DNA of 64,000 bases from Tribonema minus (taxonomy: Eukaryota; Sar; Xanthophyceae; Tribonematales; Tribonemataceae): assembly GCA_017506865.1 (NCBI GenBank), contig JAFCMP010000457.1:744001-808000 (forward strand). Reading direction: 5' to 3'. Position numbers and translations under genes: made by a program. Shown in pieces: positions 588-54,200 of the stretch (position 1 is the stretch's first letter; every line of letters starts with the position of its first letter). The notes beneath the pieces were generated by a model. It did not search any database. It had not been told where the DNA came from and saw only the letters and a program-made list of their open reading frames with translations.

Positions 588-3500
588 GTACTCATTGTGT
601 GGCAGACGATATCGCGGTCGGCGCACGAGATCACCTCCGTCAGCGGCGGCGCGCTGGCATCCGTCATTGCCGCCGGCACCGCGCTGCACGTCTCCTACCT
701 CGCTGTCAACTACACCCTCGCAGCGTGAGTGAGTGGCTCCCGGCCACGGCAGCAACGCTGCGTGGCGGCGTTGCTCCCCGCGCCCTGACGGCGCTTGCAT
801 TAATATGCGTTAACGGCCTGTCTGGGACGGTGATGGCCGCCTGCGAGCAGCAGGGTCCTAGGTTTGGATGGTCTTGACACATTTCGCATTTCGCGCATAC
901 CTCCCGATCAGTGCACGGTTTGCATGAGACATCTAGGGTTACGCTTAGGATCAGAATTGCGGTCAGGTCTAGGGTTAGTACTTGACCGTTTTGCAACATT
1001 TGCGTGCTTTCCGTTCAGCCCATGCGGCATGTGTGCCCCCTTGCTGCTGGTAGCACGGTACTCGGTCAAGCAAGGTTTCAGAAGGACAGCAACTGTGCAG
1101 TGTTCAGATACGACAACTGTAGCAACTGAACAGGTTCAGAGACTGCATGCCACAGCGTATACCACGATTCATGTAAGCCGATGTTCCGATATCTCTAACA
1201 CTTCATCTGGCAGGACTGAGAGGGACTAGCTGTTTCTGGAACCCCCTCCTCCCCCTGCCCCAATTCACACACACACAATGCTTTAGCACCCAAGTGCTGC
1301 ACAAGCCACTGCAACATGGCCCTGCTTTACTGTCGGCACCACAGTTGAGGGGGGTCAGTATACGAGAGTACCTACGACTCAGCTTGGGCATTCTGCAATG
1401 CACACATTCCCCCGCGCCATTCTGGCACATTCATAGGAGCTCTGCACTCCATTGCTACTGCTTCATGTTTTGTGACTGTACTGCCGCACAGACACGTGTT
1501 CAAGTTCAGGCGGCCCGAGATGAAGGCCGTGGTCATCATGGCCAGCGAGAAGACGCTGCCGGTCTCCATTGCGGTGAGTGCCGTGGCGACCGCTTTGTGG
1601 CATTGCTGAAGCGTGGTGCTCCGTTGTCGGCGGCTTGCGGCGGCTTGTGTCCGTGCAATGAGCATCTTCAGTGCCGCAGCAATCGCTTGGTGGCACTGTG
1701 TCAACGTCGGCTTGAGTCTGTGCAATGCGCGACTTCGGTGCCGCAGCGGTTGCCCTGTGGCACAGCTGAAGGGAGCTGCTGAGTTGATGGCAGCTCGTGG
1801 CCGTGCAAACCGCGACCTCAGTGCCGCAGCAATCACTTTGTTGCACTGCGTCAACGGCGGCTTGTGTCCGTGCAATGCGCGACTCCAGTGCCGCAGCAAT
1901 CGCCTTGTGGCAGCGCTGAAGTGTGCTGCTGGCTTGACTGACGGCGGCTCGTGTCCGTGCAAAGCGTGACTAGGGGTGCACTGCAGAATGAGCATCACCT
2001 TTGCGGTTGCAACGCATAACCCTAACCCCAACCCTAACTCTCAATGCGGCCAAGAGCGCGCCGCGTCACAGCAACAGTGCGTCAGTTGAGGGGGTAGGTT
2101 AGCACGGCGCGCGCTCGCCACCGAAGTGCCCAGTCATCGTGCAACGGCAGCATTGCGGGGTGAGCGACGCGTCTTTCACGCACACCGTCAGCTGAGTGCG
2201 TCGTCCTCGCCACGCACGCCGCAACCGTGATGTCTGGCTGCTGGGCGACTCTCCACGCGGAGCAGTTAGTGAAACCTTCAGTATCCGGGGCAAAGCCCGC
2301 GATCACTGTCAACAGCTCGACGCACCAGTGCTCAGATGGCCGGCGTCCTGAATATGCTCAGCGCGGACACAGGTTATCCATGCATGATGCTACAAATATA
2401 GCTGTTTGTCGTGAGAGTGCTTCGGTCTGCCGTAAGCTCCCCCCTCCCCCCTCCAACCCCCCCTGCTGAAGTCAGTACTGTTATGAATATCGTCAAACAT
2501 GCAGATCTCTCTAATATCATCAACTTCGAAAACGATACATACACCCAGTGCCCGTGCGGTTGGAAGCGTAGCCCCCTGCAGGAGCTGCGTACAGGTCACC
2601 AAACCAGCCAGCTCATGTCAACTTCAACTTCAACTCTTGCGATGCCGCCGCCGCGCGCAGGTGATCGGCTTCCTGACAACGCTCGGCGCGGAGGGGTTCC
2701 TGAGCATACCGGCCATCGTGTCGCAGCAGGTGCAGCTCTTCATGGACGCGTTCATTGCGGGGCGCTGGGGCGACGAGGCCGCCGCAGACACAGAGTAAGT
2801 GACTCGCATGAAGGCAGCGATCATATCATGACCTGGGCGTAGGGTTACATGCATCAGATGCATTTGTTGTGGGGTGTTGGGGCGATGAGGCCGCCGCTGA
2901 CACCGAGTGAGTCACGTGAACGTAGTCAGCGCTCAGGTTTAGGGTTGCGTTAATGAACATCACGTCTCGTCATAACCTAGGGTTGCACCACGAGCGCTTT
3001 TGCCGTGGGGCGCTGGGGCGACGAGGCCGCCGCAGACACAGAGTGAGTGGCTCAAACGCAGTCAGTGCTCAGATCGTGGCCTAGATTTAGGAGCGCGCTC
3101 AGGTCATGACCTCGGTTTAGGATTGCGCACAGAGCATGACCTTATCTCAGGGCACATGCATCAAACGCATCTGTCGTGGGGCGCTGGGGCGATGAGGCCG
3201 CCGCGGACACCGAGTGAGTGGTGCGACTGTAGTGAGTAGTGCGACTGAAGTCAGCGCTCAGATCATTATCTAGGTTAAGGGTTATGTTCTTCAACCTGAA
3301 ATGCGTCTGTCGTGGGGCGCTGGGGCGACGGGACCGCCGCAGACACAGAGTGAGTAGCGCGAGCAAAGTCAGCGCTCAGCTCATGACCTAGGTTAAGGGT
3401 GATGTTAATCAACATGAAATGCGTGTGTTGTGGGGCGCTGGAGCGACGAGGCCGCCGCGGACACCGAGCGAGTGACGTGAATGCAGTCAACGCTTAGGTT

Positions 3501-4442
3501 TAGGGTTACGATCATCAACATCAGGTCCACCGTGGGCGCCGAGTGAGTGACGCGAACGACGTCAGTCCGCAGACCCATGACCTAAGTGTAGGCTTGCAAT
3601 ATGATGCACTTGTTGTGGGGCACTGGGGCGACGAGGCCGCCGCACGCAGAGAGCGAGTGGCACAACTGTAGTCAGCGCTCAGATCATTACCTAAATTCAG
3701 GGCTGATCAGGTGAACGCTCAGATCATGACCTAGAATCAGGGTTACGATCATCAACATGAAATGTGTCAGCACCACCTGGGCACTGTTGTGTTGGCTGTT
3801 AAGGTTTCACACTCGAGCACGTATTACTTTTGTGAGGTATCGCAGTACCGCCAAGTACAATGTTTTTGTCGTCATAACAATGACCATGCCCCCCACTGAG
3901 ATGGCCGGTGCGGAGCACTGACACCAGTACCCCTGCCCTTCCACGCCCACGCCCTCTGCCAGACAAGGCGCAGTAGACCCGGAGTCGGAGGCAGAGCGCC
4001 TGCCGTTGCTGTCCGAAGAAGAGGACGAAGGCTGCACCGGCGCGATTGAGCTTGGCACTGTAAGTGCACCGCGTTTAGTGCTGTCCATAGAGGGTTCTGT
4101 AATTTGCTGTATCGGATCATCAGCAGCAACCTCGTATGCCGTGGACACATGTATACACGTATGAACTTGCACATCCCAGTTGCTTGTGAACACAGATCCA
4201 TGCAGCACACATACGTAATGGGGGGGGGGGGGGGTGAAGGTCTGCAAGCCTTCCATAATGCGGCTGAGCACTGCAGTTTGCTGCAGGCACGCGCGGCAGC
4301 AGCCCCTCTGTGCGCCGCGCTGAGCATCGCTGCCAGTGCGACCACGGGCACTGCTGTGCTCACGTCGGGCGCTGCTGTTTTGCGCATGTGCGAATGCACC
4401 GTGACATGCGATACACGCGCGCAGGGGACGGACGTGCTGTGA
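588..4442 (+). CDS. SBF-like (BASS4/SLC10A7 family) transporter, 3' part
   Basis: Multi-pass carrier of the bile acid:sodium symporter superfamily, SBF-like branch (plant BASS4, animal SLC10A7). The substrate cannot be told from sequence. Exons read as 588-724, 1492-1573, 2661-2794, 3963-4059 and 4287-4442, with codon phase kept at every junction. The first carries hydrophobic segments around LIVWQTISRSAHEI and ALHVSYLAVNY. The second has the family signature KAVVIMASEKTLPVSIA. The third gives IPAIVSQQVQLFMDAFIAGRW, matching the usual conserved end (IPC..GH..QL.IDS....W). The fourth encodes an acidic tail with a dileucine-like motif (ERLPLLSEEEDE), a possible sorting signal by inference. The fifth, ending at 4442, is the least certain. 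The first five or so membrane segments lie left of the window. The intron after 2794 contains many copies of the end of the preceding exon. Confidence 0.88.
1610..1975. repeat. Tandem repeat in the carrier's second intron
   Basis: Four or five imperfect copies of a unit of about 85 bases, recognisable by AGTGCCGCAGCAATCGC followed by a GTGTCCGTGCAATG block. It lies entirely between two carrier exons and shows no match to the flanking exons. Confidence 0.75.
2755..3700 (+). repeat. Array of copies of a carrier exon end plus splice donor
   Basis: The last 40 or so bases of exon 2661-2794 (encoding GRWGDEAAADTE) with their GTAAGT donor recur at about 2870-2912, 3003-3048, 3173-3219, 3309-3355, 3428-3474 and 3614-3658, with a stub at 3528-3546. 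Spacing is about 100-170 bases. Most copies keep an open frame and a GTGAGT or CGAGTG at the donor position. Segments between copies contain degenerate TTAGGG-like strings. Confidence 0.92.
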
Positions 4443-8392: not shown

Positions 8393-8428
<36 letters not shown>

Positions 8429-13289: not shown

Positions 13290-13322
<33 letters not shown>

Positions 13323-16300: not shown

Positions 16301-19300
16301 TGCTCCAGACTTCTTTTTCCCATCTTCGCTGCCCCTGAAAATTCTGGGGGCATTATGCATGCGCTGCGTGGGGCGCGCCTGCCCGCATTCAACTCTTCAC
16401 ACCCTGCAATCAGTCAGAGATTTCTTTTGCGTCGGGCACTTCCGGCGACCTCCCCAAGAATCACATGATTATCATAATATGTTTACTCATGTGTACACGC
16501 AGGCGCCGCGCCCCCAACGCGCCGCCGCCCTGCGCGCCCGCTAACTGCCGCACGCGGATCACCGCTCACCCCCCCCCCCCCCCCCTCTTGCGCGCTATAC
16601 TGCCCCCCCCCTCCGCAGGGACGCGTGCACGCGCCTGGACGTCCTCATGCACGAGTTCGAGGCGACCAACGCCTCCATGCAGGCCGTGCGGACGGAGGCA
16701 GCGGAGGCGCGCAGCGCGGCGCGCGCCGCCGCCGCGCGCTGCGCGCAGCTCGAGGCGCAGCTGCAGTCTGCGGTGGCGGCGGGCGTGCGCGCCGGCGAGC
16801 GGCCGGATGGTGGTGGTGATGACGATGATGCTCAGCAGCTGTGGCGCGAGCAGCAGCAGCGCGCGGAGGCGCTGGTGCAGCTGGTGGAGGCGGGGAGGGT
16901 GAGTTGGGGTTTGGTGAAGTTCAAGTTATTGTGAGGGTAAGAATTGACAGGATTGACATAGGCTGCATGTTGATGATATTGCACCGTGAAGGGCGGCTTT
17001 GGGCGGTTGTTGCTGCTTGAGGTAGGAGCGGGAGGGCTGTGCCGCGTCTCCGCTTTTGGGAATGCTCTCAGGGGAAGATGCGTTCGTGAGGATGGCTTGA
17101 CCTGAATTCCTGCGGCAGTGACGTGTGCAAAACGTAGCGAGGTACGCATAAGCTACGCCTTGCTGAGCACTTGCGCCCCGTAATTCGTCGCCCGCACGGT
17201 CAGGCCGTGCAGGCCCTCTCACCCCCCTCTGCCCGCGCGCTGCCCCCCCCCCCCCCCCCCCCTGCCCTCCCCTCCCCTCCCTTCCCGCCAACCCCCCCCG
17301 CAACAGTCATCTGACCGCGTCCGCTGTGCCCCCCCCCTCCCCCCCCTTCAACCCCACCCACGCCTCTCCCGCAGGCGCGCATCGAGGAGCTGGAGGCAGC
17401 GCTGGCCGCCGCCGACGCGCGCCGCCGCGCCATGCACAACCAGCTGCAAGACCTGCGCGGCAGCGTCCGCGTCTTTGTGCGCACGCGCCCATTCCTGCCA
17501 GGCGATAACGAAACGCCGCCGCCGCCGGGTGCGCACGCGGCGGTGCGCTGCAGCAGCGACGCCGTGACGGTCGTGGCCCCTGGCGGCAGCAGCAGCAGCG
17601 GCGGCGGCGGCGCGGCGCAGAGCTTTGTGTTCGACCGGGTGTTTGCGCCGTCCGCCGGGCAGGAGGACGTGTTCCGGTACGTGCTCGGCTGCGCGTGCTC
17701 GTTCATGTCTGCGGCGGTCACTCGCTCCTTGCGCGCAACATAGGATGACGCCGTCCGTGCCGCTGCACACTTTGCGTATCATCGCTCGCTCCGAGACAGT
17801 CAATTCAAGTGCGTGCTTGTTGCCGCTCTTTGTGCGTTGTGTGAGAGTGCGCAGGGAGGTGAGCGAGTTTGTGCAGAGCGCGCTGGACGGCTACAAGGTC
17901 TGCCTCTTCAGCTACGGGCAGACGGGCAGCGGCAAGACGTGGACACTGCAGGTGACCTAGTAGTAGCCCAGCATTAACCCTAGCAGGGGAAGCGTAATTC
18001 ACGGCAAGTGACCTAGTAATGCAGCACTGACCGTAGCAGGGGCATGTGTATTTCATGGCAAGTGACCTAGTAACCCAGCACTGACCCTAGCAGGGGGATG
18101 CGTAGTTCATGGCAAGTGACCTAGTAAACCAGCACTGCCCTAGCACGGGATGCGTAGTTCATGGCAAGACGTGGACGCTGCCGGTGACCTAGCAGTAACG
18201 CGGCACTAACCGTAGCAGAGGACTTGTAGCTCGTGCCACGTTGCAACCTATATCATGCTATGCGCACTTGCAGGTGCTCATGACGCATCGGCTGCCCTGG
18301 CGGAGCGCTGCGCACACCCCCTGAGCTGAGCACTGTGCACGTGCCCCGTCCGCACCAAACGCTTCGCAGTTGCCCCCTTAGCTGAGCACCCTGCATCTGC
18401 ACCCCCTCCTCGTCTGAGCACTGGGCATCCACCCTATTGACTGAGTGCTGGGCATCTTGGCTGAGCGCTGTGCATGGGCCCTCTAGGCTGAGCGCTGGGC
18501 ATCCGCCCTCTCGGCTGAGCGCTGCGCATGGGCCCTCTAGGCTGAGCGCTGCGCATCCGCCCTCCCGGCTGAGCGCTGGGCATCTGCCCTGTGTCAGCTG
18601 AGCGCTGTGCATCCGCCCTCTTGACTGAGCGCTGCGCGTGTGGTTTTCTCAGTTTCTCATCAAAACTCTGCGCATCCGTTTCTCCTCGCGCCCGCCGCGC
18701 AGGGGTCCGGGCGCGGCAGCCTGCGCGGCATCACGCCGCGCGCGGTGGAGCAGATCCTGCTGAGCGTGCGCGCGCTGCGGGAGCGCCACTGGCACTACGA
18801 CCTCGAGGTCTCCTTCATGGAGATCTACAATGAGCAGGTGAGGGGCGGCGGGCACCGACCATCTGCAGCAGCTCCGCTGCCGCGAGCGCGCGCGGGTGCT
18901 GGTGCGACGCTGATGCCATGTCAGTCAGGCTGCTACTAAAAGCAATTATTTTAATCAAGTAATAAGCTCGTACTTGTGCCATCCATTGCCCCCTGACTGA
19001 CCCCACCTCCCCCATCAGCTCTGCCAAGTGAGCCATGCGCCGCCGCAACTGCGCCTGCAGCGGCGCCGCGCACTCGCATCTCACGCACGCGCCGCTGCTC
19101 TTCCGCAACCAACACAGCTGTCAAACTCTCACAGCCGCATCTCCCGATCGCGCCGTCCGCAGCTGCGCGACCTTCTGTGCGCCTCCTCCGAGCCCGCCGC
19201 GCGCGCCGCACAGCAGCAGCAGCAGGGCTCGTGGGGCGGCGGCGGCAGGAGCGGCGGCGGCGGCGGCGGCGCTGCAGCACCAGCCAAGCTGTCCATCAAG

Positions 19301-32330: not shown

Positions 32331-32415
32331 GGCGCAGCAGCCTGAGGCGCGGCAGCGGCGACGCTGCCGCCATTGCGCACTGCCATGCTGCTCAGCAATG
32401 TCGTAGGCAATGAGA

Positions 32416-36202: not shown

Positions 36203-39200
36203 CTGCAAACAAGAGCAGCAACAGCAGAAGCAGGGACTTCAAACATCAATATCGACATCAGTACCCTGTGCTCTTTCACAGGGCACACCGGGTGAGCACG
36301 CGGCAACAGACAGCGCATGCGACGGCAGCAGAGTCTGAGGCTGAGAGTGGGGCGGAGCTGCCGTGGCCGGGTCATATGAGCACTGCGGCGCGTCACTGCG
36401 CAGCAGCGCGCCCCTGCGCGCCTGTCGCGCGTCGCAGGCGGCCGACTGCGCGCAGCGGCATGACAATGTGATGACGCTCTCGTCGCCGGCGCTGAAGCAG
36501 CAGCGACAAAGGCAGCGAAGCGAGTGCGCAACAGTCGACAGCGCCCCCTTCGCTGGCTTTCGCCTGCCACCACATGTGCGCCATGACTTGTCCTGTCCCA
36601 AAATGGCGACCTCAAGGTTAGGCCACAACAGCAAGCTATACGCTTGCGTGGTTTAAACAGGCTTCACGCAACACCTCCTTCCATCAACTTCCAATCACTC
36701 CGCCACTAACGCCCTTGACTCATGCACATGTTCTTCTCAGCTCAACGTGTTGCCTTTGCTTCCTTTGACTCCAAAACGAAATACAGCCGACTACTCTTCT
36801 TCCTTAATTCCGCAATCGAATCTCAAGCAGCGGCTCTACGTGGTGTACGCACGTGCTCCAGGTCCTCCGGCCTCTGCAGCAGGTCCAGGCAGCTCGTGCC
36901 GGCCCTGGTCTTCAGGCTCAGGTCGCCGCCGCGGCGGGCGAGCGCTGCCGCGAGCGCCAGGTGCCCGTGCGCGATGGCCGCGTGCAGCGGCGTCTCTCCG
37001 CTGACGGACGCGGCGTTGATCTCGGCGCCGTTCTCCACGAGCCAGGAGCCGATCTGGACGCGGGCGACGGCCTGCGACTCGGCGCTGCGAGGGTGGGGGA
37101 CGATGGTGTGCAACGGAGGGGGGGGGGCGGGGGGTGGTGAGGGAGGGTAGGCAGGTATAGACTGGGTGGGGGTGGGGGCGGGGCGGGGAGGGGACCACAG
37201 CAGCATGGTGAAGGCGCCACGACATCGGACTGCTGCTGCTGCTGCCGAATGCCTCTTTGCCGCCTTTGCAGCTGGGCAGCTTTGTGTTGAGGCCCATTGT
37301 GCCACACGGGCGCGCGATGACACGATGCGCCTGCGCCGCAAAATACTGATGACGAACGCGCCGCTGCGCGCCGCATGATTCGCTTGGCGTGCGCGACAAT
37401 CGGGTGGCAGACTGAAGCGGCGCCGTTGTCACACCGATCATGACTTGACCTCGCAAACCGACCCGCCACGGCACGCATGTATGTGTTTACTGACTATGCT
37501 ATGCCCAGGTTCACGTGTCTGCGTCTCCAGCGCCCTTCAGTGGCCGACTCTTGTCTCATGGGATGTCTCATGAGCGCGGTAACGCCGCGCCGCGCCTTAG
37601 GGTCAAGGTTAGCCTAAATCTAACCCTCTGACCCTGGTCAGAGCATCGGGCGGCCGACCCAGCCAGCGTGGTGACATGCAAGGCTTCATCTGCTGGGATT
37701 GAACTGCAAGCAGGAAATGTAGGCGTGCGCCTGTCGCGGCACGCCCGCACTGCCTATGACACGCCAATGTCCCTGACCCTGACCCTAATTATACCCTAGT
37801 CCACGTCCCTAGCCCGAACCTCCACCCTAACCCAAATGCTAACCCCGACCCTACCCTGTTCCGAATCCAACCTACGCCCTGCCGCGCGCACTCACCCCGT
37901 GTCGCTGAAGCGGGCGGCAGAGAGCAGCGGCGTCTCGTTTTACACTACTGTTTTGAGCGCACGCACAAGTCTAACCCTAGCCCTACCCTCGTCCATGTCC
38001 CTAACCGTAACCCTAATCCCACCCCTAATCCTACCGTAGTTTGATTTCCAATGTACAGTACATATTGTGCGTGCACTCACCCCGTGTCGCTGGAGCGCGC
38101 GGCAAAGTGCAGCGGCGTCTCGTGATACTTGTTGAACGCGCGCACCAACTCGCCACGCTGTGTCCCCTACCTCTCACCCTACCTCTACCCTTCATCGTAA
38201 CCCTACCCTGTTCTTCATTCGATCTACACCTTATGCGCACTCACCCTGTATCGCTCGAGCGGGCAGCGAAGTGCAGCGGCGTCTCGTGGTACTTGTTGAG
38301 CGCGCGCACCAACTCGCGGCGGCGCTCTGGGTCCACGTAGCGCGTGATGCCCTGCGCCTGCAGTTAATCGCGGCCGGGGAGCGCGAGGGGGGGGGGGAGG
38401 GTGTGTGTGTGGGTATGTGAGCTGAGCGTTGAGGCAGTGTGAAGTGCCTGAGTAAGCAGAGGGGGGCATTTGGACATGAAAGGAGGGCTGCAGCAGCGCT
38501 GACTGTGTGCCGCACCACGCTTGTGAATGCAGCGGAGCGGGCTGAGGTTTGGGGGCGGGGGTCAAAGGTGGGGCTTGGAGCAAGGGTTGCGGGTGCGGAG
38601 CGTGGTCAGCTCTGCGTGAGTCTAAGGGTATAACCCTGATCCTAACCCCAATTTGCGCCTCAGCCGCACCCAAAACTGCACGAAGCTTGACATCCAGTTG
38701 TACAGCCATCCGCTGATTCATGCAGAGCTGCAAAGGCTTGGTTGTGAATTACCATGTTGCGTGACCCCAATGAATGGCACCTGATAGTCCCTCAACTCGC
38801 CTGGCCCTACGATAACCCTGGGTTGGCAGCGCTCACCTGCGAGACGCCCAGGTTGTGGTCCTTGCAGAGCACGCGCAGCGGCACCAGCCACGCGTACGCG
38901 TCCTCCTCTGCGCAGGGGAGCAGCGCAGCACACAAGGTAGCTGTAGGTAAGGCGCCTCCTTCGTGAGCGCAGGCAGAGAGTTACAAGAGCGCAAGCTTCT
39001 GGCTAGAGACAGGGCTGGTTTCAAATCTGACCACTAGGACGCACGCCACACTGGCATGTGGCGAGAAACTGCATGGCGTCCTGAGCCCTTGTGACGCCAT
39101 TGTTGTGATGTCCACGAACACAGCGCAAACTATGATTTGAATTTGGATTAGTTCCTAACCCTAAGGCACCGACGCACGACCCCGAGCGAAGCTGCGGCAG

Positions 39201-42200
39201 CTGCCACATTACGCAGCAGCACCACCACACACCACATGCACGCGGCATACGGTACGTATCATGAGCTGAGCACTGAGGACTCAAAAAACTTGCCTGAGGT
39301 CGCCTTGAAATACAGGCGCCCCTCCTTGTTGCGCTTCGAGCGCAGCAGCTCCTGGCTGTAGATGGCGAAGCACGCGCTGCGCGGGTCGTTGGGGACCTCC
39401 GGGTCGGCGCACTTGTGCAGCATGGCGCGCTCTAGGTGAAGGCGGTTCGCAGGCGGACGCTCCGCCATGTGGTCCTGCACACAATGAGAGAGAGGTTGAG
39501 CACTGCTGTGAGGTGCCGGTGGTGAAGCACGTGCGCGCATGGACCTGGTGGCTACAGTAACATGTCAGTTGAAGTGTCATCTACGTACAAATTCACTTGA
39601 AGTGTGATAGGCGCGCTGCAGGTGGAGACGGTTTGCGGGCACATGCTCCGCCATGTGGTCCTGCACGCCACGAGAGCGATTTGAGCGCTGCGGTCGGGCA
39701 CCGGTGGCAAGCAGTTCGCACCACGACGGCGTTGTCGCTTGTCGCAGTGGGGCGCGTGCGCGCATGGACCGGTGGCTACAGTAGCATGTCAGTTAATAGT
39801 ATCGTTGAAGTACAAGTCGCGTGAAGTAAGGTAAGCGCGCTGGAGGTGGAGGCGGTTTGCGGGCGGACGCTCCGCCATGTGGTCATGTGCGCAATAAGAG
39901 AGGTTGAGCGCTGCTGTCAGCTGCTGGCGGTGAAGCACGTGCGCGCATGGACCGGTGGCTACAGTAGCATTTCAGTTGGTGTACAAACCGCTTGAAGTGG
40001 GGGAGGCATGCTGCAGGTGGAGGCGGTTCGCAGGCAGTCATTGGCAGCGCCATGCGGTCCTGTGTGACAAGAGAGCCGAACGCTGCTGTCAGCTACCGGT
40101 GGCTTGCACTGCGGCACACGGCAAGTCGCGTGCCGCCCGAAGTACATACAACTCAAACTACACGTTATGTGGAGTACATGCAACTCCAAGTACATCACAC
40201 GACCACGACACGCGTGTGTGCGCATCGGCGCCGGTCCCCAAATCCGCACGCACAGCTCGTGCCAATGCGGCAATTACCCACGCTACAATACCAGTGCGCG
40301 ATGAAAACATACGCCGTCGCGTGCAGCGCCCACCCCACCCACCTTCTGTGAGTGGTAGTAGTTGAGAGACCCGTCCGCAAACGCGACGCACCACCGCCGC
40401 TGCCAGCGCCCCGTCTCGCGCCGCTTGTCGAGCCAGCCCGCGTGCACGATGGCGGCGCCGGTGATGGCGCCACTGCCGGTGCGCACGTGCGCGCCGCCGC
40501 CGACAGATGCCAGGTTGCTGCCGGCGCTGGTCGGCGTGGGCGCGGCGGTGGGAGTCGCGGGTATGATGACGCTGCCGCGGCGGCACGCGGGCTGCGTGAG
40601 CGCCTGCGCCTGCAGCATGGCCTCGCGCGCCTCGCTTGCAAAGCGCAGCGAGATGCGCGTGGTCGCGCTGAGCTCGGCCGCGTCCATGGTGCCCTGCGAT
40701 GTGAGCGAGAAAGGGGGGGGGGGGGGAAGGGGGGGGGGTGCCGCTGCTGAGCAGTGCAGCAAGGGGGTATGCTGGCGCACACGCATCGTTTGTTGGCCGA
40801 AACTTGCTGACATGACACACCTACATAGCGTGGCGCCGCAGCGACTCCAAAACTTACGCAACAACGTCACAGTTGAAGTTCACTGCCTTCGCGGTCGCTC
40901 ACCTTGCCCGCGAGCGCAGGGCCCACGTGCACCTGCGTGTTGGCGCGCGCCGCGAGGAACTTGACGAGGTCGTACTTGGCGGACGCACACGCGTGGTGCA
41001 GCGGCGTGTTGCCGTCCGCGTCGCGCAGCAGCACGTCCTCGGGCAGCGGGTCGAGCAGCGAGACGAGGGACGTGCTGCCGCCCTGCGCCGCGGCGTGCAG
41101 CAGCGTCTTGAAGCGGTCGCGGCGGTGGCGCAGGCACAGGAGCTCCGGGAACTGCGCGGTGGGCAGAGGTGAGGGGGGGGGAGGGGTGAGCTGCGAGCGA
41201 TGCTTGAAGTTCGTGCAGAGACCGCCCGCTGCCACTTGAAGCGGTTGCGGCGGTGGCGCAGGCACAAGCGCTCCGGGAACTGCGCGGTGGGCAGGGGGGT
41301 TGGGGGGGGGGGGTTCAAGCTGCTGGCGATGTTCGAGGGTCGGGAAGGGGGCGCTTGGTGTCGCTCGAAACGGGCGCAGGGGGGAGGCAGGGGGTGCGGC
41401 AGCGGCGCAGCAAATTGGCTGCACCAGGAGCTAGCAGGCAGAAGCTGTGAACCAGTGTGATGAAGGCTACTACAGAAATGTAACCAGGCTTTTGGCAACA
41501 AGCTACAGCCGCTTGTGTCACTCCCCCCCAAAAGAAACCGGCAAAGCACGTTCGACCACCGCACTGCGCTGCAGCTTGCGAGGCGATCGCAGCAGCAGCG
41601 GCACGAGACGCTAAATATATGCAGTGCGCGCACCTGCTTGATGATGGCCGCGACGGCGTTGACGTGCCCCTCCTTGGCGCTGCGGAACGCCGAGTCCACG
41701 CGCTTAGCGAGGCGGCGGTTGCGCAGGAACGCGCGCACGGCGCGCTGGATGCGCGCGGCGGCACGGCAGCGCTCGGCGCGCATGCGCTCGCGGCGCGACT
41801 TGCGCCACGCGCACTGCACAAGGCAGCGGACGACGACGCACAGACGAGGAAAGAGAGGTGGTCAGAGCGGATCGAGCGCACCACTTGCCCTACCCATAAC
41901 CCTGACTTGGCACGGCGTCGCACGGCGCGCAGGTGTGACAGCGTCACAAGCGCCGTGGCGGTGATGCCGATGTGCGCCACGCGTGCGCGTCCGCAGCGCA
42001 GCGCAGCGCAGCGACGACGCGCAGCACAGACAGGGAAAGAGAAGCGGTGAGAGTGCGTCGAACAGAGCAGCTGCGGGTTGAGCCGCAGTGGCGAGCGTAG
42101 GGTTAGGGCTAGCGCGAGGGGCGCGTGCGATGCGCAGCGGCGGAAAGGGAGACGGTCAGGGCGTATCGAACGCGGCGCCCGCGCCTGGCGCAGCGCTGCG

Positions 42201-45200
42201 CGGCGCTTCACGAGAGAGGAGCGCAGCGGCGGCGGCGGGCATTGTGGCAGCAGTGATCCTTGGGAGTAGCAGTGATGCCGCAGGCAGTCGAGCGCTGCGG
42301 CGGCGGCGTCACGACCGCTGCCATAGCTGCCACCGCGTGCGCGCCGCCGCAGGACTGCCGCCAGGGGCGCGCGCACAGGCCGTGCAGAGCGCTGAAGCGT
42401 ACAAGGCATAACAAAAAAACATGCGGCGGCGCATGCACACAGCGCCGAGCGCGTTGAGCAGGACGGCGTAGCACTCAACTCTCAACCATTCACAACTGTG
42501 GCTGACAAAAACACAACGCGTGAAACACGTAGGTAGTGTACACCTGTATGTTCTCAACGCTCAACTGCTTGTTGAAGTATGATCATACCTCACCACAAGA
42601 GAACATGTCAAGAAAACAAATGCGTAGTGCACACCTGTATGATCTCCGCGGCCCTGTACTCCTTGGATGCGCGCAGCTTGCGCAGCTGGATGCGCGCGAG
42701 GACGGTGCGGCTCGTGCGCTGCAGCACGGCGACGGCGGCGGTGCGGCGCCGGTACTCGCGGCGCTCGCGCGCGCCGCGCAGCACCGCCTGCAGCTTGATG
42801 GCGCTGCTGCGGTGGTCCTGGTATTGGCGGCGGACGTACGCGCCGCGCACCATGCGCTGCGGCGCACGCGATACAAGACGTTGTTTCAGAAGATGCGGTC
42901 AGTCTGGAGGTACAATCGGTGACCAGATGCTGATCGTGCAATACAAGACTTGTCTTTAGAGAGACGTGGTCACCCCGAAGCAGCACTCGGTGCAGTCTCT
43001 CACCTGTAGTATCTGCACCTTGCGCACCGTCTTCTGGAAGCGGTTGCGCGCCTGCGCCATGCGCACCACCTGCAGCGCACAGCCAGCGACACGCGCAGCA
43101 GCAGGGCATCGTGTCATCAGCATTCATCGAGACGGCAGCGCGCAGCATGCGGAGCGGTGCTGCCGTCCCCCGGGCACGCATCGGCATGCATCTCGCACAT
43201 TCGATCAATCAGTACATGAGGCGTTTCTACAGGCAACGGCCATGACACTGCATTGACGTGCGGCACTCGTGATCAGCGGTATGCGCGGCCTAACCCTAAC
43301 CCTAAGCACCGAGATTGCGGAGGAGTAGTTTGCCTTGTTACAGCGGCACGCGACTGCTGCGCCATCACAATCATCGAGAAAGCTGCGCACGCCGCGCACA
43401 CCGCGGCAAGTGACTACACCTCGCACTGAACACCGACATCTAAACCACGCGTCGCGCACGCCGTACCTTTTGTCAATTAGGGTTAGGGCTTGCACAGGCG
43501 CAGTTCACCTCGTCCAGCGGCACGCGACTGTTGCCCCATCATCACCAAGAAATTCGCATGCGGCGCACGCGCACCGTACCTTCTGTATGGTGATGGCGGC
43601 GGTGCGGCCTTGCCTTTCTCCAGCGGCATGTGACTGTTGCACCGTCACCATTGAGCAATCTGCACACGTCACGCATCCTGCGGCAAGTGAACATTTGAAT
43701 CATCTGCGCCACGTGCCACACGTACCTTCTGTATGGTGATGGCGGCGGTGCGGCGCCGCGCGACCAGCTTCTGCGTGGCGCGGCGCCGCACGAGCGCCGT
43801 CACGACGCACGCGTAGTGGTTGTACTCGAGGCGCACGGCGCGCCGCAGCGCCTCCAGGCCCTCCTCCTTGAGGAAGATTTGGGTGTGGCCGACCTGGGAG
43901 GGGAGGAGGGGGGGGAGAGGGGGGGGGGGGGCATTAGACTGCATGTCGTGCTTCGAACTTGATTGCCATCACACATGTTTGCCATTGTTGGACGTGGGGG
44001 GGGCGGAACAGGAAGGGGGATAGAAGCACGGGCTTTCGCGTCCCAAAGCGAGAACCCACGAGCAGCACAAAGGTCACAGCGGTGCAAGCGTGAGCAGCCC
44101 TAACCCTGCACCCAAGCCTGAAACACGTCCACGACGCCTCTATACGTACCTGGAAGTACTCAGCACTGCCCTGACCTTACCCTACACCCGACGCTGATAC
44201 ACGCTCGTGACGCATCTCATGTACCTAGCAGTTATCGTCGTTGCCCTGACCTTACCCTACACCATCAGCTAATACGTGTTTACAACGCTTCCACTATACC
44301 TGGAAGTACTCGGCGTTGCCCATGACGCGCGTGAGCACGGCGCGCGCCGCCACCTTCGCCTCCGCGTCGCTGGCCACGCCGGCCGCCGGCAGCACCGCCC
44401 ACTCGGGCGGCGCGGCGGCGGCAGCGGCGGCGCGCGCAGCGGCGACGCGCGCGGCGCGCGCGTGCAGCAGCTCGAAGCGGTCGTAGAACTCTGCAAAGGA
44501 GACGCGCACGGGGTACGCCTCGCGGCGGATGCGCACCACCTCCAGCACGCCGCTGCGGGAAGGGGGGAAGGGGGAGGGGGGGGGGGGGGGGTGATGATTG
44601 AATAGGCAGGCGTTGGGCAAGCGCAGATGCGGGGAGATGCGCGATACAGGCGCGCTCTCGTGTGCTGCATGCGTGCGCGCATGGGCACTTGAAGTGCTGC
44701 AACAGCATTGCTGCGGATGCAAGTTCGGCGATGGCGTCGGCGATGCGCGCGCTATGTATCTGAAACGGCCGACGAAAATGCTGATGGCAAGACCGCGTCT
44801 TCGGGGAACTGCGTGCGTCCACCCGAGAAGCACCGCCGTGCCTCACGGACACTCTCGCCCCGAGTGCGTAGACACACTACGCGACGCGACAACGCAGCGT
44901 CCTTGGCAAAAGGGCAGCGTCCCGCGAGGCGCTCACCTGTAGTGCACCTGTAGTTGAGCTGCTCGCGTACGAGGTGCAACAGCACAAACACGTGTCTGGG
45001 GACTCCCAACATACTTGAAGTATGCCAAGAGTCCCCCCCGCAGACACGTCTGCGTCCACAAAATGTGCATCAGCCGCCGCTTGCCAGCGACGACATCCTC
45101 GCTCACATTGCAATGAAAGAGTGAGTAGCCGAGGCGGTGAGGAACGAGTAGAGCGCGCAAGCGCAGCGCAGCGTCTCTGGAGGCGCTCACCTGTAGTTGA

Positions 45201-48200
45201 GCTGCAGCGCTTATGAGGACATGCTTCCATCCGAGGAGCACCGCCGTGTCTTATGGCCACTCTCGCCGAGTGCGCAGACATACTCTAAGCGACGACGCAG
45301 CGCGTCCCGCGAGGCGCTCACCTGTAGTTGAGCTGCTCGCGCACGAGGTGCGGGCTGAAGCCGCCGGGCGCCTTGACCGTGTTGGGCTTGATGCACTTGA
45401 TGTAGTGCGGCTCCGTGTTGCGCAGCGTGTGCATGAGGCTCAGCAGCTGCCCGCGGAACGTGCGCGAGACCGTGGACGTGGTGGCCAGCTGAGCCGTGGG
45501 GGGCGCGAGGGGGAGGGAGCGAGGGGGGGCGGGGGGAGGGGGGGGCAGGGGGGTTACGCGGTGAGGACCGAGGGGAGAGTGGAGAGAATGTGGATGGCAA
45601 GGACAGGATGCCGCTGAGCATGGCTATGCTGTCAAGCACCAGCGTCGCCGCGCTGCGGAGCAACGGCGGCGGCGTGCCGCGGAGCATCGTTACCGTCATG
45701 CCGCCGAGCAGCGAGACGGTGCATGCTGACCTGTCATCACAAGCCTCCGCAGGGTCAGGGTTTGATGTTAGGGTTTGACGTTGGGGCTAACCCTAAGACT
45801 ACGCACTCCCCGCTGCGCTGCTCCGCCGAGCACCCGCCGAGACGCACCCGCACACGTCTGAAGCAGCTCTCTTGAGATCACGAGCCACCGCTTCATCTCA
45901 TCGACTTCGCCGCCATCATCCTCACTTTCAACTCACCAGGTGAGCGCGCCCCGACGCCGGCTTGCGGTCCGCTGAGACGCACCTGATCATTCTCAACTTC
46001 AGCTAGAAAAAAAACTTCAACTCACCAGGTGGACGCGCCCCGACGCCGTGCGCCGGTGCTCCTCGCGGCTGGTTGCGCGCTTGTGGTCGCCGCCGAACGT
46101 GCGCGGCGGCGCCGCCGGCGGCGACACGGGCGTGAGCCCTCCGAAGCTGCCGTTGGTGGCGAACGGCGAGGAGGACATGCTGCTGTCCGGGGTAGCCAGC
46201 ACGTCCTGCGAAGCGGCGGCGGCGGCGGAGCATGGAGGTTGAGCCAGAGAGCGACCTGTCTACTGTGAGGACGTGTGATGGTACTGTTGCAAGGGCGTGT
46301 TGAAAAGTTGAAGGGTTGGCGTGCAAACCGGGCTGAAGCGAGCGCAGCAGACCGAGCTGGAGAAGGCAAGCAGTGGCGCGGCGTGCGATGCTGCAGTTGC
46401 CCTTGCGGTGGCACATCTAGCAGCGCCTGCGCACGCCGATGAAACACTTTGCCAAGACCACAGCTCAGTGTCTCATGGCGCTACTGTGAGGAATAAGTAC
46501 GAGGTACTACTTTAGTGTCGGCGGTGCTACTGGTGTCTGTCAACCAACGGTAGCTCATTCAACACTTTATTATACATTGATCTCAACAATCAGCAACGAC
46601 AAGTGCTGTGATGTCTCATGTAATTTGGCCCACGAGTCATCGAAGGTGACCCTGTGTCTGATACCACACCAACAGTAGATGGGTGGGTAGGTAGGTAGGG
46701 TATTCATGCCATCAGTGCTCAGCGGCGCACCACTCTACATCCTCAGCGTGGTGCACGACGGCCGACAAAAAGCGCCAGTGCTCAACAAGTGAGTGGGTAG
46801 GTAAGTAGGGCATGCATCAGTGCTCAGCAGTACACTCACATCCTCGTGGTGCATGATGGTGGACAGGAAGGCGTAATGATAGGTGGGTACGTGAGAACTT
46901 CTTGAAGTATAGGCCATCAGTGCTCAGCAGTACACTCACATCCTCGGCGTGGTGCATGATGGTGGACAGGAACGCGTTGGTGGACGTGTCTAGGAGCTCC
47001 AGCAGCGAGTCCTGCAGCGAGTCGTTGTTCTTCTCCAGGAAGCCGCCGACCTCGTACTGCCATGCGGCGATGGGGGAACGGGCGTTGCGCAGTAGAATGT
47101 AAGGTCTTGGCAATGGGACTTGAGATCAGCAGTACGTGCGCACATCACGTGTTCAGTGGCACAGGTGACGGCCGCTGGGCGCACAGCTGCAGAGGCGCCC
47201 TAGCCAGCAGGCAAGGCATCAAGGACGCCCGCCAACGCGGCAACAGCAAGGCACAAACAGGCGTTCACGACTGACTCACGTGCCCCCCAACTCGCTACAT
47301 AACTCATCATAAGCCCTGTCACTCGCCACAAAGCAGCGGCGCGCGACAGCGGGCGCACTTCGCACAATGCACATCTCCAGAGCAAAAACATACCCGTAGC
47401 ATGCCATCGCTTCTCAACCAGTGACGGGGCTCAGCTGCAAGCGACAACGCAGTGACGCTCGAGGAGCGCAGCGTCGTTGCGCAAAGCCAAAGTTGTGCCA
47501 GTGGTGATGCTCAACCGGCTGCAGTGCTCACCGTCACGGCGCCGGCAAAGTGCTTGACGATGAACTCCTGGCCCTCAAAGCGCGGCTTGGAGTAGTGCTC
47601 GTTGCTGCAGCGGCAGTGGCGGCAGCAGCAACGAGCAGCACAAAGCGTGAGCACAGCTTAGGTCAACACATGTTGGCAGATGTGGCTGCCGTGTGTGCTC
47701 CAACGTGCAGGGGTGCATGACTTGTTGTGGCCGCGGCAGCGCCTTTGGCAGATTCCTAACAAGGAGAGGGATATTAGGGGAGATGTACTTCAACTTCAAG
47801 TGTATCTTGATGAACACTTCAACTTGATACTACGGCAGGCGCACCTGCCCAGCGATGCAGAACCTCAGCATCATCCAACAAGCATGCTGCAGCGTGAGTC
47901 TCATGAACTCTGCTGCTTCACACACCACCACGGGCATAGCTGCAGCGGCTGCGCTCACCTGCCGAGGTGCGTGTTGTGGTACAGCTGCAGCAGCGCGCGG
48001 TTGTCGGCGCGGCGCCCCAGCGCGCCCAGCTCCTCGAGCTGGATGAGCAGGCCCGTGGGCTTGCGCGCGATGAGGTCAATAACAGGCTGGTTGTCGCGGA
48101 AAGAGATGGCCTTCCAGTCCAGGCCCTCGCGCTGGTACGTGTCTTGTTCCAGTACGAAGACCTGGTGGTTGAACTGCTGCTGGAGGACCTCGTTGGCAAA

Positions 48201-51200
48201 GTTGATGCACAGCTGCTCGAAGCTGCATGCGGGGGGGGGGGGAGGGGGGGGGGGGAAAGGGGGTAGGTGGGTTGTCGACGTAAATTTGATGCACAGCTGC
48301 TCAAAGCTGCGCGCGGGGGAGGGAGGGGGGGGAAGGGTTAGCTGAGTTGTTCACGTGAAGTTGATGCACAGCTGCTCAAAGCTGCGCGCAGGGGGGTACG
48401 GGGGGCAGGGGATAGGTGGGTTGTTCACGTAAAGTTGATGCGCAGCTGCTCAAAGCTGCGCGCGCGGGGGAGGGGGGGGGGGGCAGGGCGTAGGTGGGTC
48501 ATTCACGTGCAGGGAATCTGGGGCTGCCACGGACACAATATCGCTCTTAGAAGTATCAGCTGCTGTCTTACTTGGAAACAATGGCATTGACGAGATCAAG
48601 TGGCGAGTGGTGCGCTGAGCGGCGCCAGCTGTACCGGCTCAGCCGCTGCCGACGTGTCGCAGGCGCATTTCACCCTGCAGCCTGTAGCGCACACGCGCTC
48701 GGAGGCTCTCAGCCTCGTGCGCCATTGAGCTATGCCGCGACCTGTCAAGTGCATGCATTGCACGTCGCGCGTGTCCTGCGCAGCGGCAGGTCGACTCCCC
48801 GACGCACACGCCCCTGACACTACACGTTCATATCACTCTCAGCGTCCCTGGCACTTCTGCGTCATCTCAGTGCGAGGGCCGCGAGCGGAAGCGGGGGACG
48901 GCGCGGCCCTCGCGACCCACGATGTCAAACCCTACCCCCCTCCTCCTGGCCCTTACCCTAACCCCCCACCCGCTGTGCGCATGATCTCAAAGCCTAACCT
49001 CATCGTAACCCTCATGATCTCAAAACCTTACCCTAATCCCACCCCTAAACTACCCCCCCCCAACCCTACTTCTACATCTAAACCCCCACCTGTTGCGCGT
49101 CATGATCTCAAAGCCAAAGATGTCGAGGATGCCGATGAAGGCCTGGCTGCGCGCCTTGCGCGACGCCAGCGGCTGCCCGCCCTGGTGGCTCTCGTTGATG
49201 CGGCTCACCAGCCAGCCGAACGTCTGCGCGTGGGGGCGACGCGCGCGCAGGCGGAGGGGGCAGCGCTCAGCAAAGCAAGTTATGCATGTATATACGCCTG
49301 CTGACATGGCGTGGACCGGCCAGCCGAACGTCTGCGCGTGGGGGCAGCGCGCGCACAGGCAGAGGGGGCAGCGCTCAGCCAAGCAAGGTATGCACGTATG
49401 TACGCCTGCTGACATGGCGTCGACAGGCCAGCAGAACGGCTGCAAGCCGCTGCCGCGGCCCGTTCCCGCGTGATGATCATCGAGCGCTCCGACAATCACC
49501 GCTGCCGAGGGCGCGTGCGGACTTCAGCGCCTCAGCTGCAGCTGCCGGGGGAGCAAATCGCCCCACACTCATTGAGAGCTTCAACGGCGGCTGCCACGGA
49601 CGGGGCGCATGCGCACTTCAACAGCGCAAGTTCAACATGTGACGCAGGCTCACCTGGCCATATACGTGCTTGATGAGGCCGTCAAGGTTGGCCTTGGCCT
49701 GCGTGGCGTCCAGCGGGATGGAGATGTAGCTGCGGCGGCGAGCGCGGTAGGCGGATGGCAGTGACGATGAGAAGCGGAGCGCGCGCCCCTCAACTTCACC
49801 TGTGAACTTCACATCATGTGACGCGCCATGGTCACTGGCGTCTCTGGCGCCGGCACAGAGCTTGCTTGCTTCACGAGCACGGCGGCGAAGGGCAGCAACG
49901 ATGAGAAGCGGAGCGGAGCGCGCGAACCCTAACCCTAACCCTAACCCTAAATTTCACCCCTGAACTCCACACCATGCGCCGCGCCATGGTTCACTGAGGT
50001 CGCACGAAACTTGTTTGTGTTACCCCAATGGGACCGCCGCCGGCCGAAGCACGCGCAGTGACAGCCAGCGCCGCGGGCGCGCACGCGCTGCGCAGTGACA
50101 CACAATGGAGTTTGCTGCAAGCGGCACGTCTCACCCGCTGGCCGCACGAGCATGCAAGCAGCCGCACCTAGGGCTAGGTTAGGGTTAGCCGCAGGCGGCT
50201 CCGAGGCGCTGCCGCCCATCGCAAGTGGTATGATGACACATGCACTACCACTAAAATCCGCGTGTGCTCCACAGTGCTGCGAGTCGGTTGCATCCCGCAC
50301 AGCGCAGGCCATCCGCACCGCACCTCCGCCGCATCAGTATGCATCAGGTGCCCATCGCCGCTGTTGAAGCGCGTCGTGTTCCACCCGAAGCCAGGGCGCC
50401 GACGCAGGGCGGCGCGCACACATGTGTCGGTCATGCTAACCCTAGCCCTAGTCCTGACCCAGCGCACTGCGCGCGGCCGCGCTCATTCATTCCTTCATTT
50501 CCTCAAACATCCGTTCACGTGTTCCGCAAGCGTCGCGCCGCGTGCGCATGCACGACGTTTGCAGTGCTGCGTTCAGGTGGGCCACGGACGGGCAGCGGCG
50601 CGGTGTTCGGAACATTCCGTGCTCGCCTGTCTGTTTATGTATATACGTACATGAGACACTTTCGAGGAGATCACAAAGACACATGTAGATTCTGGTCGCA
50701 AGCGGGACATCCACCATCTGCGCCTTTTCACGCCCGGAGCGACAATCTTAATTTGTTCTTAAAAACAAAAAGTGCATACTTACATACATACCTGCCCGCC
50801 GTCTGCGTGCGGCGCGTGCGGATGTTCTCCGTGAGCTCGCCCAGCCGCAGCCCGAGGTCCGCCGCCAGCTCCGAGAGGGGTTGGATCCCAGCCTGCAGCT
50901 CCACCTGCGCGCCGCAGACGCGTGGCAACGGCTTGGTATGCATGTAGAGCATCTATTTTAGGCACACGATCAGCATGCCCATGACAAGTAGCTGGATACT
51001 TCAATATGTGTTCCGTGGAGCTTCGGGCTCGCGCGAGAGGGATTGGACGCCAGCCTGCAGCTCGACCTGTACGCGCGGACGCACCCAGTGGCAGCAGTTG
51101 CTTGAAACGCATATGCAGCACATGTATGTACACCTGTAACACGACACTCAGTGCAGCCAGCAATTCAAGGGGTCGCCGTGTGGGGCGGCCTCAACGGTGA

Positions 51201-54200
51201 CGTTCCCCAGGTGCAGCAGCGCTCTGCATCGTGGCTCAACAGTGTCCTCTGCAGCGACTCTGCAGCAATCAGCACACACATTACTTGGCCCACCCCATTT
51301 CCTGTCGATGACTCTCAGCAGCGCAGCGAAGCACTCAACGAGTCACTCACGGGCTCGCCCTCCGCCGCCGTCTTGAAGGTGACGTTCCCCATGTACAGCT
51401 CCGCATCACGGCTCACCAGTGCCGAGGCGACACCACAGCAATTGACACACACACACCACTACATCAGCACACATTGCTTGACCAAAACGCGCAGCAATGC
51501 GGCGAGTCACTCACGGGCTTGCCCTCCTGCGCGGTCCACAAGGTGACGTTCCCCATGAGCAGCGCTTTCGCAGCAGCAATCCGCAGCAGCGCTCTATGGA
51601 GCAACAACAGTGCTCTACGAGGCGACACCACAGCACACACGCTACCGTACTTGGCCAACACTGTTTCCTCACAATGACTCTCAGCAGCGCAGCGAGCCAC
51701 TCAGCGAGTCACAGACGGGCTCGCCCTCCGGCGCGGTCTTGAAGGTGACGTTCCCCATGTGCAGCGCTCCGCATCACGGCTCAACAGCCTAGGCGACACC
51801 ACAGCAATCAACACTACTTCAGCACACATAGCTTGACGAAAAAAACCGCGTAGCAAAGCGGCGAGTCACTCACGGGCTCGCCCTCTGGCGCGGTCTTGAA
51901 GGTGACGTTCCCCATGTGCAGCAGCGCTCCGAGCAGGCGCCACATCTCTCCCCTGTCCGCGGCGCCCACGCCCAGCGTCTCCAGCGCCTCGCACAGCTTT
52001 GCAAACTCCGCCAGGTCATCCACATCCTGCGCGGAGCGATCCCGCGCGTCAGCAACGTGGACGCGTCAGCATCTACGTTGCTGTTGATGATGTACATGTG
52101 CACAGGGGGTGCGTATATACACATGTATGTCTAAGGCTTGATGTTGTGATGGGCCTTGCGTCTTCAGACCGTCGCACAGCTTCGCAAACTCCGCCGGGTG
52201 GTTGACGTCCTGCGACGAGCGATGCTGCACACGTCAGCTATGTACATACATGTGTGTATTTTTAAATGAACATGTATTTATATTATAAGGCTCAACATCG
52301 TGATGAGCTCAGCGTCTCCAGCGCCCCGCAAGCTTTGCAAACTCCGCCAGGTCATCTACGTCCTGCGCGGAGCGATGCTGCGCGCGTCACCTACAGTATG
52401 TACATACATGTGGGTACTAACATATGGATGTAGTACTTGTATATGGATGTAGTGTGACAGATGTACAAGCCTCGATGTTGTGATAAGCACAGCGCCTCCA
52501 GCGCCTCGCGCAGCTTCGCAGACGCCGCCGGCGCGCCAATGCCCCAACCCTCACCCTCCCTGCCTCACATTGCAGCACATGAATGGCAACTTGCCCTTCT
52601 TATTGCCATCAATTTACATTACATGACATACTTCGAAGTATAGTGTATGTGTCATCATGCATGGCAATGAGTAAGTCAAGGGTGTAGCCATAGCATTGGC
52701 AAAAAGCGCAGCCTGTTTGCTTCCGCGCGACGCGTCAACTGCAGCATGCCGTTGCGCGTCGCGTTGCCGCGCAGCAGTGCTCAGCAGCTGCACCCGCATG
52801 CTTCAACACACCGTCCAGACGCACAGTCGGCATGCACGCTCACCCCATGCCTTGATCCAATGCCTACACATAACACACATACCCTGTCCCTGACCGTGGC
52901 AGCGCTCATTCGCAACGATCGAGCACGCACCGCAGCCCCGTCAACCAGTGCTCGCGCTGAAGCTTTGCCCAAGCCTAACCCTAGCTAGCGCCGCTCACAA
53001 CTACCCGCACGCTGCGCGCCTCAGACTGCGCGCACACCGCGCCTTGATCGAGCATCGCGCACTCGTCTGCGTAACCCCCACCGGCCCCCACCGTAACCCC
53101 GACCTTGTTGCAGCACCTCGAACTGCATGCGCTCCGTGCCCTGGCCGAGCATCGCGCACTCCGCCGCGCACCCCTGACCCTCGCCCCGGCCTCACTGCGC
53201 ACCTCGCCACACCCCGCCACAGAACATCGCGTTACGCTCCTCTGCGTAACCCTGCCTTCACCCCTGACTGCTGGCCCCAGCATCGCCGCATAACCCTAAC
53301 TCAACCCCTAGCCCTGACCCTAACCCCGACCTCCATGCACACCTCGGACTGCGTGTACACCCCGCCCTGGTTGAGCATCGCGTACGCCACCATGTGACCT
53401 CAACTCTTCCCCTACTCCACACCCTCAAGCCCGGGCCCGCTCAAACCATGCGCTGCGCATCGCGGACTGCCGCATAACCCTAGCTCTGCCCCTGACTCTA
53501 CCCCTAGCCCTACCCCCCTAACTCCGCGCACCTCTGACTGCGTGTACACCCCGCCCTGGTTGAGCATGGCGTACTCCGCCGCGGGGCGCATCGCCGGCCG
53601 CCTCCGCGCGCCCCCCCACCGCCACGCCCCCCCCCCCCTCCGCGGCCGCGCGGCACAGCTGGTAGAAGACGTGGTAGTTGCGCTCCGCCGCGTCCTGGTG
53701 CACGAGGCGCGACTTCTCCAGCAGGAAGTGCAGCGTGCGCGCGCCCACGATGCGCCAGTCCGCGCCGTACTGCAGCTTGATGTACTTGCCGAAGCGCGAC
53801 GAGTTGTCGTTGCGGACCTGCACGCGGCAGCGCTCGGCACAGGAGGGAGGGGGGGTCAGCGGATGTGTGCGGCGGCGGTCGGAGGGCGCGTGCTGCGCAG
53901 CGGTGATCGTGCTGCGCTGAATACTTAGGATATCCGGTTCGCTTGGCGCTCGTAGGTGCACATGTGCCCGCTGCTGAGGGCGGTGCTGACAGCAGCGCGG
54001 TGTTGAATAAGAGCGTGCCAGTGCGTGTGCCCCCGCGGCGCAGTGCAGCCCTGGCGGAAGTTGAATCTGCCAAGCGCCGCCGCAAGCGCCTCACATGCAA
54101 CACCAAGAAATTGCAGACACGCAGCAGGCGACGCCCGAACGCCAGGCACGCTGACCCTACCTACCTACGCCTAACCCTAGCTAGGACACGCACCGTCTTG

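Follow-up and report, generated by a model that had tools for sequence, protein, structure and literature searches.

How do pieces of exon come to lie, splice sites included, inside the introns next to them? The question is raised by a 64,000-nucleotide stretch of the Tribonema minus (Xanthophyceae) genome, contig JAFCMP010000457.1, positions 744,001 to 808,000 (hereafter the window), which contains genes for an SBF-like carrier, RPL5, a kinesin-14 and a myosin. An earlier note, made from the letters alone, had claimed that exon borders together with their splice sites recur in tandem in the neighboring introns of these genes. We found that such copies are real and recurrent, and that duplication is as frequent in the interiors of introns as at their borders. 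The likely explanation, in our judgment, is frequent small local tandem duplication in introns, with selection leaving the exon-contiguous copy in service.

Border copies in the window and in other sampled genes

Comparison of the window with itself revealed many direct local repeats. A border copy was defined in the window as an alignment in the adjoining intron that spans at least 8 bp on each side of an exon-intron border. Among the 52 exon borders of the 26 modelled introns, 13 had at least one straddling copy in the neighboring intron, with best scores of 24 to 48. This confirmed the recurrence of borders described in the earlier note as well as its figure of "more than a dozen", most of them in the myosin gene (11); the carrier and the kinesin (14 borders) had one each, and RPL5 (8 borders) had none. 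The carrier acceptor at 2660/2661 scored 19 and was left out of the 13, while border 48222 was concealed by low-complexity masking and recovered in an unmasked search. Strict alignment gave 1 to 5 copies per border, within the range of one to seven given in the note; seven was reached only for the carrier array counted by eye. The dinucleotide at the border position of that array was GT in three of the five aligned copies and GC in two. The exons and arrays concerned are as follows.

2661..2794, + strand: SBF-like carrier exon whose 3' end is the array source (sequence; PF13593)
2795..3768, + strand: carrier donor array, copies 2878-2935, 3013-3071, 3320-3378, 3438-3492 and 3623-3681; two more by eye
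17855..17951, + strand: kinesin-14 P-loop exon, source of the donor array; junction agrees with the protein P0121 (see below)
17952..18211, + strand: kinesin donor array, copies 17983-18032, 18036-18088 and 18163-18211
18284..18637, + strand: kinesin tandem array in the intron downstream of 17951, fully intronic, no border
53532..53817, - strand: myosin exon, donor border 53532/53531; copies 53306-53372 and 53001-53046, another at about 53113-53180 by eye
51874..52026, - strand: myosin exon with both borders copied; acceptor copies 52333-52394 and 52180-52238, donor copies 51692-51746, 51485-51544 and 51326-51380
50792..50904, - strand: myosin exon, acceptor copy 51037-51082
49090..49223, - strand: myosin exon, acceptor copy 49315-49360, donor copy 48958-48997
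47959..48222, - strand: myosin exon, acceptor copies 48282-48332, 48358-48411 and 48431-48483; poly-C adjoins; unmasked search only
46940..47056, - strand: myosin exon, donor copies 46815-46866 and 46708-46767
46026..46205, - strand: myosin exon, donor copy 45927-45959
45322..45488, - strand: myosin exon, donor copies 45162-45218 and 44917-44977
44300..44552, - strand: myosin exon, donor copies 44131-44175 and (weak, score 20) 44210-44250
43725-43070, 42634-41814, 38244-37085 and 35548-34816, - strand: probable myosin tail introns with donor copies (ab initio)
40342-39475, - strand: probable myosin tail intron with acceptor copy (ab initio)

Further kinesin arrays at 20262-20420 and 20825-20948 were intronic and crossed no border. 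An ab initio gene model placed small false exons on at least four of the myosin copies.

Sampling outside the window was non-random and centered on kinesin genes: a kinesin profile was aligned, with a home-made spliced aligner, to 27 stretches around other kinesin genes (20 kinesin stretches and seven further kinesin loci, L035-L041). Introns shorter than 100 bp or with a flanking exon shorter than 60 bp were excluded from these profile-based counts. All counts come from one genome, and the assembly searched for matches comprised 158.18 Mb in 554 contigs. Across the first 92 introns (26 in the window, 66 elsewhere), copies were present at 21 donors and 20 acceptors; the 66 introns outside the window accounted for 12 of these donors and 17 of these acceptors. 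A cross-intron null, for which each border sequence was searched in introns other than its own, gave 0/92 donors and 0/92 acceptors at a score of at least 22, and 1/92 of each at 18 or more. Shuffles of 4-mer blocks at three loci, a form of the control proposed in the earlier note, yielded no local duplication. The cross-intron null and the block shuffles of the three loci exclude a chance origin of the copies.

A second set was drawn from the ab initio model, which uses codon use and splice signals and was trained on kinesin exons. It excluded exons shorter than 60 bp or scoring below 6, introns shorter than 100 or longer than 2500 bp, non-GT-AG introns and introns overlapped by an exon on the opposite strand. 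With the window included, this set held 176 introns with copies at 29 donors and 33 acceptors, such that 55 of the 176 were affected; outside the window the figure was 41/127. The affected introns were drawn from 18 of 26 loci. At least among the sampled, kinesin-centered genes, border copying occurs genome-wide, and about one in three sampled introns contains decaying duplicates of the exon edge next to it, splice site included.

Duplication at borders and in intron interiors

The copies are local to each border, recur across the genome and carry intron text, in agreement with the DNA-level tandem duplication put forward in the earlier note. At one locus, L034, a unit of 54 bp of exon and 123 bp of intron repeats at +177 without a difference and at +354 with 87% identity; the unit was therefore duplicated at least twice. 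The statement that arrays grow outward from their exons holds insofar as donor copies lie downstream and acceptor copies upstream. This is true by definition, however, since the name of exon goes to the copy that remains attached to it, and the direction therefore says nothing about mechanism. Outward growth is a consequence of selection on the coding sequence.

Exon borders did not stand out as special targets in absolute terms. Duplicated positions made up 0.218 of borders vs 0.208 of interiors in 101 introns, and 0.176 vs 0.162 in the 176 introns of the ab initio set. At cut-off 22, coverage by duplication was 0.198 close to the border and 0.216 deep in the intron, and so did not fall off with distance. 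On the donor side it stayed level across the border, then dropped inside the exon to 0.03 at a depth of 60 bp and to 0.01 at 80 bp; on the acceptor side it was 0.02 at both depths. Local direct copies are thus evenly spread over borders and interiors and are rare beyond about 60 bp inside exons. Because interiors are duplicated as often as borders, the pattern is driven chiefly by duplication throughout intron DNA. The duplicated share also rose with intron length, from 0.055 (5.5%) below 500 bp through 0.164 at 500-800 bp to 0.260 (26%) above 800 bp. This rise supports the earlier suggestion of intron growth by duplication.

The joints of young duplications bear on how the copies are made. 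The sampled DNA, taken irrespective of compartment, held nine tandem duplications that were young and complete; six of them had a match of 0-3 bp beyond the unit, the kind of trace that end-joining or fill-in of staggered breaks would leave. The other three matched over 16, 21 and 48 bp beyond the unit, as multi-unit arrays would show; most other duplications were too diverged to read. Taken with the even spread, these joints are consistent with a scheme of which we infer the break-repair route, the selective filter and the non-use of spare splice sites. Small local tandem duplications, roughly 25-400 bp, would strike introns often and along their whole length, probably through end-joining or fill-in of staggered DNA breaks. 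Where an event spans a border, only the exon-joined copy could remain exon end and splice site, because any other copy would add intron text to the mRNA. The surplus copy would turn into intron sequence and then decay, and repeated events, some on an already duplicated unit, would build the arrays and lengthen the introns.

Several observations weigh against this explanation, and the retention of GT in donor copies, taken up below, is a further one. Position-blind simulations expect a border rate of about half the interior rate, because a border-straddling duplication can have its partner on one side only. Forward simulations of this kind gave border/interior ratios of 0.46-0.72, and another set gave 0.38-0.67 with neutral border events and 0.21 when half of the border events were rejected. 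At the simulation settings, the ratio observed in 92 introns lay between 1.18 and 1.78 over cut-offs 22-46; at cut-off 50, with 1/184 borders remaining, it was 0.60. When interiors were allowed an exon partner (101 introns), it was 1.05-1.41 at cut-offs 22-34 and 1.13 at 38. A gene-wise bootstrap of the ratio at cut-off 22 ranged over 0.72-1.32 in these 101 introns; 0.15-0.9% of bootstraps fell below 0.65 at cut-offs 22-34, and 4.7% did so at 38. The exon parts of the copies were short, with medians of 36 and 51 bp (unit offsets of 180 and 169 bp), and shorter than expected from random breakpoints. Only 11 of 41 best border copies still matched over the full unit. Local duplication covered 0.286 of intronic positions in the window genes vs 0.061 of the rest, and, in the stretches, 0.179 of non-coding positions within kinesin motors vs 0.064 of the rest; in a small ab initio intergenic set the duplicated share was 0.051. 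Introns are denser in duplication than other sampled DNA, and the process is therefore not blind to genome compartment. Whole exons, edges included, carried duplication at 0.095 (window) and 0.080 (stretches).

A roughly two-fold border excess over simulation is left unexplained. Candidates are border-biased breaks, unequal exchange fed by the non-drifting exon copy, and selection that disfavors arrays collapsed onto an exon copy already decayed. Easier detection of copies of a conserved exon, simulated with constraint of 0.1-1.0, small indels and rate variation, was too small an effect to explain the excess. A GC bias was also rejected (duplicated intron, 0.581; other intron, 0.573).

A rival to the scheme above is a border-biased process, in which breaks or template switches favor about 60 bp around exon-intron junctions, for example through a tie to transcription or splicing. 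We regard this as possible, though rather unlikely. Besides a border/interior ratio about twice that simulated, also at cut-offs up to 46, the short exon parts and the greater richness of introns in duplications fit such a process, as does the finding that, of 31 multi-copy arrays, 18 had their best match in the nearest copy. It is opposed by the equality of the border and interior rates in absolute terms and by a coverage that does not fall with distance from the border. Two processes omitted from the simulation could each preserve border arrays for longer: homologous unequal exchange, and selection that works against arrays collapsing onto an exon copy that has degenerated. We likewise give a small chance to the boldest form of this reading. 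In it, breaks or copying errors in this lineage would cluster within some tens of bases of the junctions of transcribed genes, exon ends and their splice sites would be copied into introns time and again, and the spliceosome would tolerate near-identical competing donors by always taking the exon-contiguous one.

Fate of the copies

Of 43 copies, 42 were 0.74-0.90 identical to the border; the remaining one, the 177-bp border unit of L034, had an identity of 1.00. At donors and acceptors, respectively, the identity of original to copy was 0.885 and 0.855 in the exon part and 0.806 and 0.798 in the intron part; the better match of the exon part is as expected if constraint acts on the original exon alone. 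When copies were compared with one another, exon- and intron-derived parts differed little: the identities at donors and acceptors were 0.824 and 0.829 for exon-derived sequence and 0.845 and 0.774 for intron-derived sequence. A smaller earlier set gave, for exon- vs intron-derived sequence, 0.855 vs 0.796 and 0.747 vs 0.729. A net frameshift was present in 16 of the 39 copies with at least 15 exon bases, and AG was retained in 47/61 acceptor copies vs 366/470 neighboring exon dinucleotides. In line with these counts, the copies decay mostly as neutral intron DNA. The suggestion that they are kept as alternative exons was not supported, given the frameshifts and the neutral retention of AG.

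Donor copies kept GT in 48 of 52 cases, vs 303/397 exon dinucleotides; within interior duplications GT was retained in 87/127, with no center bias in interior windows. These figures speak for copies maintained by selection, whether in the role of decoy or reserve splice sites or in that of alternative exon ends, an explanation that we nevertheless consider improbable. Donor GT retention is nominally above neutral, but the copies of one array are not independent, and we take it as a weak hint. Acceptors behaved neutrally, and the smaller first set was near expectation (GT 19/23 vs 16.2 expected, AG 13/20 vs 14.6 expected); both the first retention counts and the frameshift count rest on an earlier copy list that lacked some copies. 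Frameshifts argue against selection as well, and the kinesin protein P0121 contains no array copy from the intron at 17952-18702. No purging of decoy donors was seen in the donor copies, a result of note in its own right.

The earlier note had further pointed to tandem duplication of an AGGT-containing exon segment as a route to new introns. The mutation would be of like kind, and duplications are common here. However, the donor and acceptor of one intron matched in register in only 2/92 introns (null, 3%, that is 0.03), and donor-acceptor scores of at least 18 were found in 1/92 (null, 0.018), in a comparison where old intron births may have decayed past detection. We hold it very improbable that intron birth of this kind produced the copies.

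We give equally little credence to a dispersed intronic element (introner or transposon) or an assembly artefact: repeats may mislead assemblers, and the 100% identical 177-bp L034 unit could be a false doubling, but 42/43 copies are 74-90% identical to their border, which is not an assembler product, and the three arrays searched across the genome matched elsewhere only in their exon parts. In this search, which skips very common words, the carrier array gave 5 matches, all at its own locus, and its first 265 bases matched only there. The kinesin array had three matches elsewhere, inside exons of other kinesins, and the myosin array (exon 51874..52026) had only two short ones, both to the exon part, on contig C1.

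Gene models, telomere-type motifs and known systems

The carrier gene (+ strand) was recognized by Pfam family PF13593 (E 1.5e-7) and is presumably of SLC10A7 type; its exon after 3963 was positioned by eye. The kinesin-14 motor part (+ strand) was modelled in 8 exons with a stop codon at the end. Hand-spliced, it shared 365/400 identities with P0121, "kinesin family-like protein [Tribonema minus]", the two being the same but for one stretch of differing gene models. At 18838-19270, the P0121 model reads past the exon end at 18837 into the intron and rejoins later than the present model; it is probably wrong in this interval.

The motor part of the myosin (- strand) was modelled in 14 exons, and with the exon-contiguous copies its reading frame holds across the 10 junctions between 52026 and 43726. 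Most junctions were gap-free in alignment with six homologues. Two call for caution, those at residues 88 and 51 of the spliced piece, which lay at alignment gaps in 6/6 and 4/6 homologues. A poly-G run in exon 53532-53817 (286 bp) shifts the frame by one base, probably an assembly slip or a polymorphism. Ankyrin and PH domains are present in several of the related myosins listed, and an ankyrin exon lies downstream of the motor; the gene therefore probably extends to about 34 kb, over the following region.

34816..43725, - strand: probable myosin tail region, including the ankyrin exon 36850-37110 (ab initio models only)

RPL5 lies on the - strand, and its named relatives were mostly stramenopiles, with one Brassica entry third in rank. 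By eye, an intron appears to follow straight after its ATG codon (10056-10058, - strand). Retroelement remains were found at 27874-29437 (- strand), where two of three open pieces scanned resemble the RVT_2 reverse transcriptase family, the one exceeding the family's cut-off and the other falling short of it. Elsewhere in the sample, two LHC loci on different contigs, L013 (C296:14307) and L014 (C490:834530), showed 100% identity along 3411 bp, which is what a haplotype left uncollapsed or a doubling in the assembly would give.

Telomere-type (TTAGGG)2 motifs were strongly enriched: 133 kb of introns contained 98, against 0.4 expected, whereas 67 kb of exons contained none and 29 kb of intergenic DNA contained 7. 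The window had 19 matches, some overlapping, vs 0.03 expected, at the following positions.

2020-2037, 3494-3505, 35508-39164, 42097-43488, 48950, 49927-49950, 53312 and 61836: telomere-type repeats

TTAGGG is probably the telomere repeat of this genome, because one contig (C2) opens with a long array of it. Short interstitial telomere repeats can mark repaired breaks, and the motifs may bear on the duplication mechanism. With the motif masked first, duplications were found in 32/46 introns that carry it vs 43/130 that do not. By length class, this link was present only above 800 bp (P values of 0.017 and 0.048; below, 1 and 0.37). Positioning of the motifs beside duplications was also considered and showed no clear link (28/60 vs 24.1 expected).

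The duplications can be set beside several known systems. Gao and Lynch reportedly described internal gene duplication with intron creation, and Zhuo et al. are said to have described introns derived from tandem arrays. Both systems would share with the present one sub-gene tandem duplications that touch intron-exon structure, whereas here most detected events are intronic and leave the coding structure unaltered. Intronic minisatellites resemble the border arrays in being head-to-tail with diverging units, and they also occur here, as in an RPL5 intron with a 19-bp minisatellite at 7461-7633 and no exon border in the array. Unlike these, the border arrays have units that take in splice sites along with the ends of exons, and 1-5 copies were detected at each copied border.

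The potato RdRp gene has a tandem duplication across an intron-exon boundary, splice signals included, that made a new expressed intron with RNA-seq support, and a further 83-bp tandem duplication in the first intron (Ma et al. 2016, PMC4974935). The segment duplicated in potato resembles that at 13/52 window borders and in the L034 unit, in that it spans and adjoins a border; the potato case, however, concerns one gene and a new expressed intron, whereas here many genes are involved and the copies, judged from sequence, seem to stay inside the old intron. Tandem genomic duplication as a model for the gain of introns (Rogers; Hellsten et al.; reviewed in PMC3443670) likewise involves local duplication of sequence that bears splice signals, but we saw no sign here of introns so born (2/92 in register). 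Introners (PMC9860276) share with the present arrays a genome-wide link between repeated sequence and introns, whereas the arrays tested here are private to their own locus.

Among the open-licence papers listed in literature searches, no title or opening of an abstract dealt with a genome in which one-third of the introns bear copies of their own borders. The system is a known type of mutation at unusual intensity, border-crossing duplications being otherwise known one gene at a time. For annotators it is a warning, since border copies can attract false exon predictions. The copies also provide a natural setting in which to study how the spliceosome selects among donors, at L034 even among donors whose flanks are the same. 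Since their ages range from fresh, with no difference from the original, to hardly discernible, they form a natural series for intron growth and for the rate at which spare splice sites originate.

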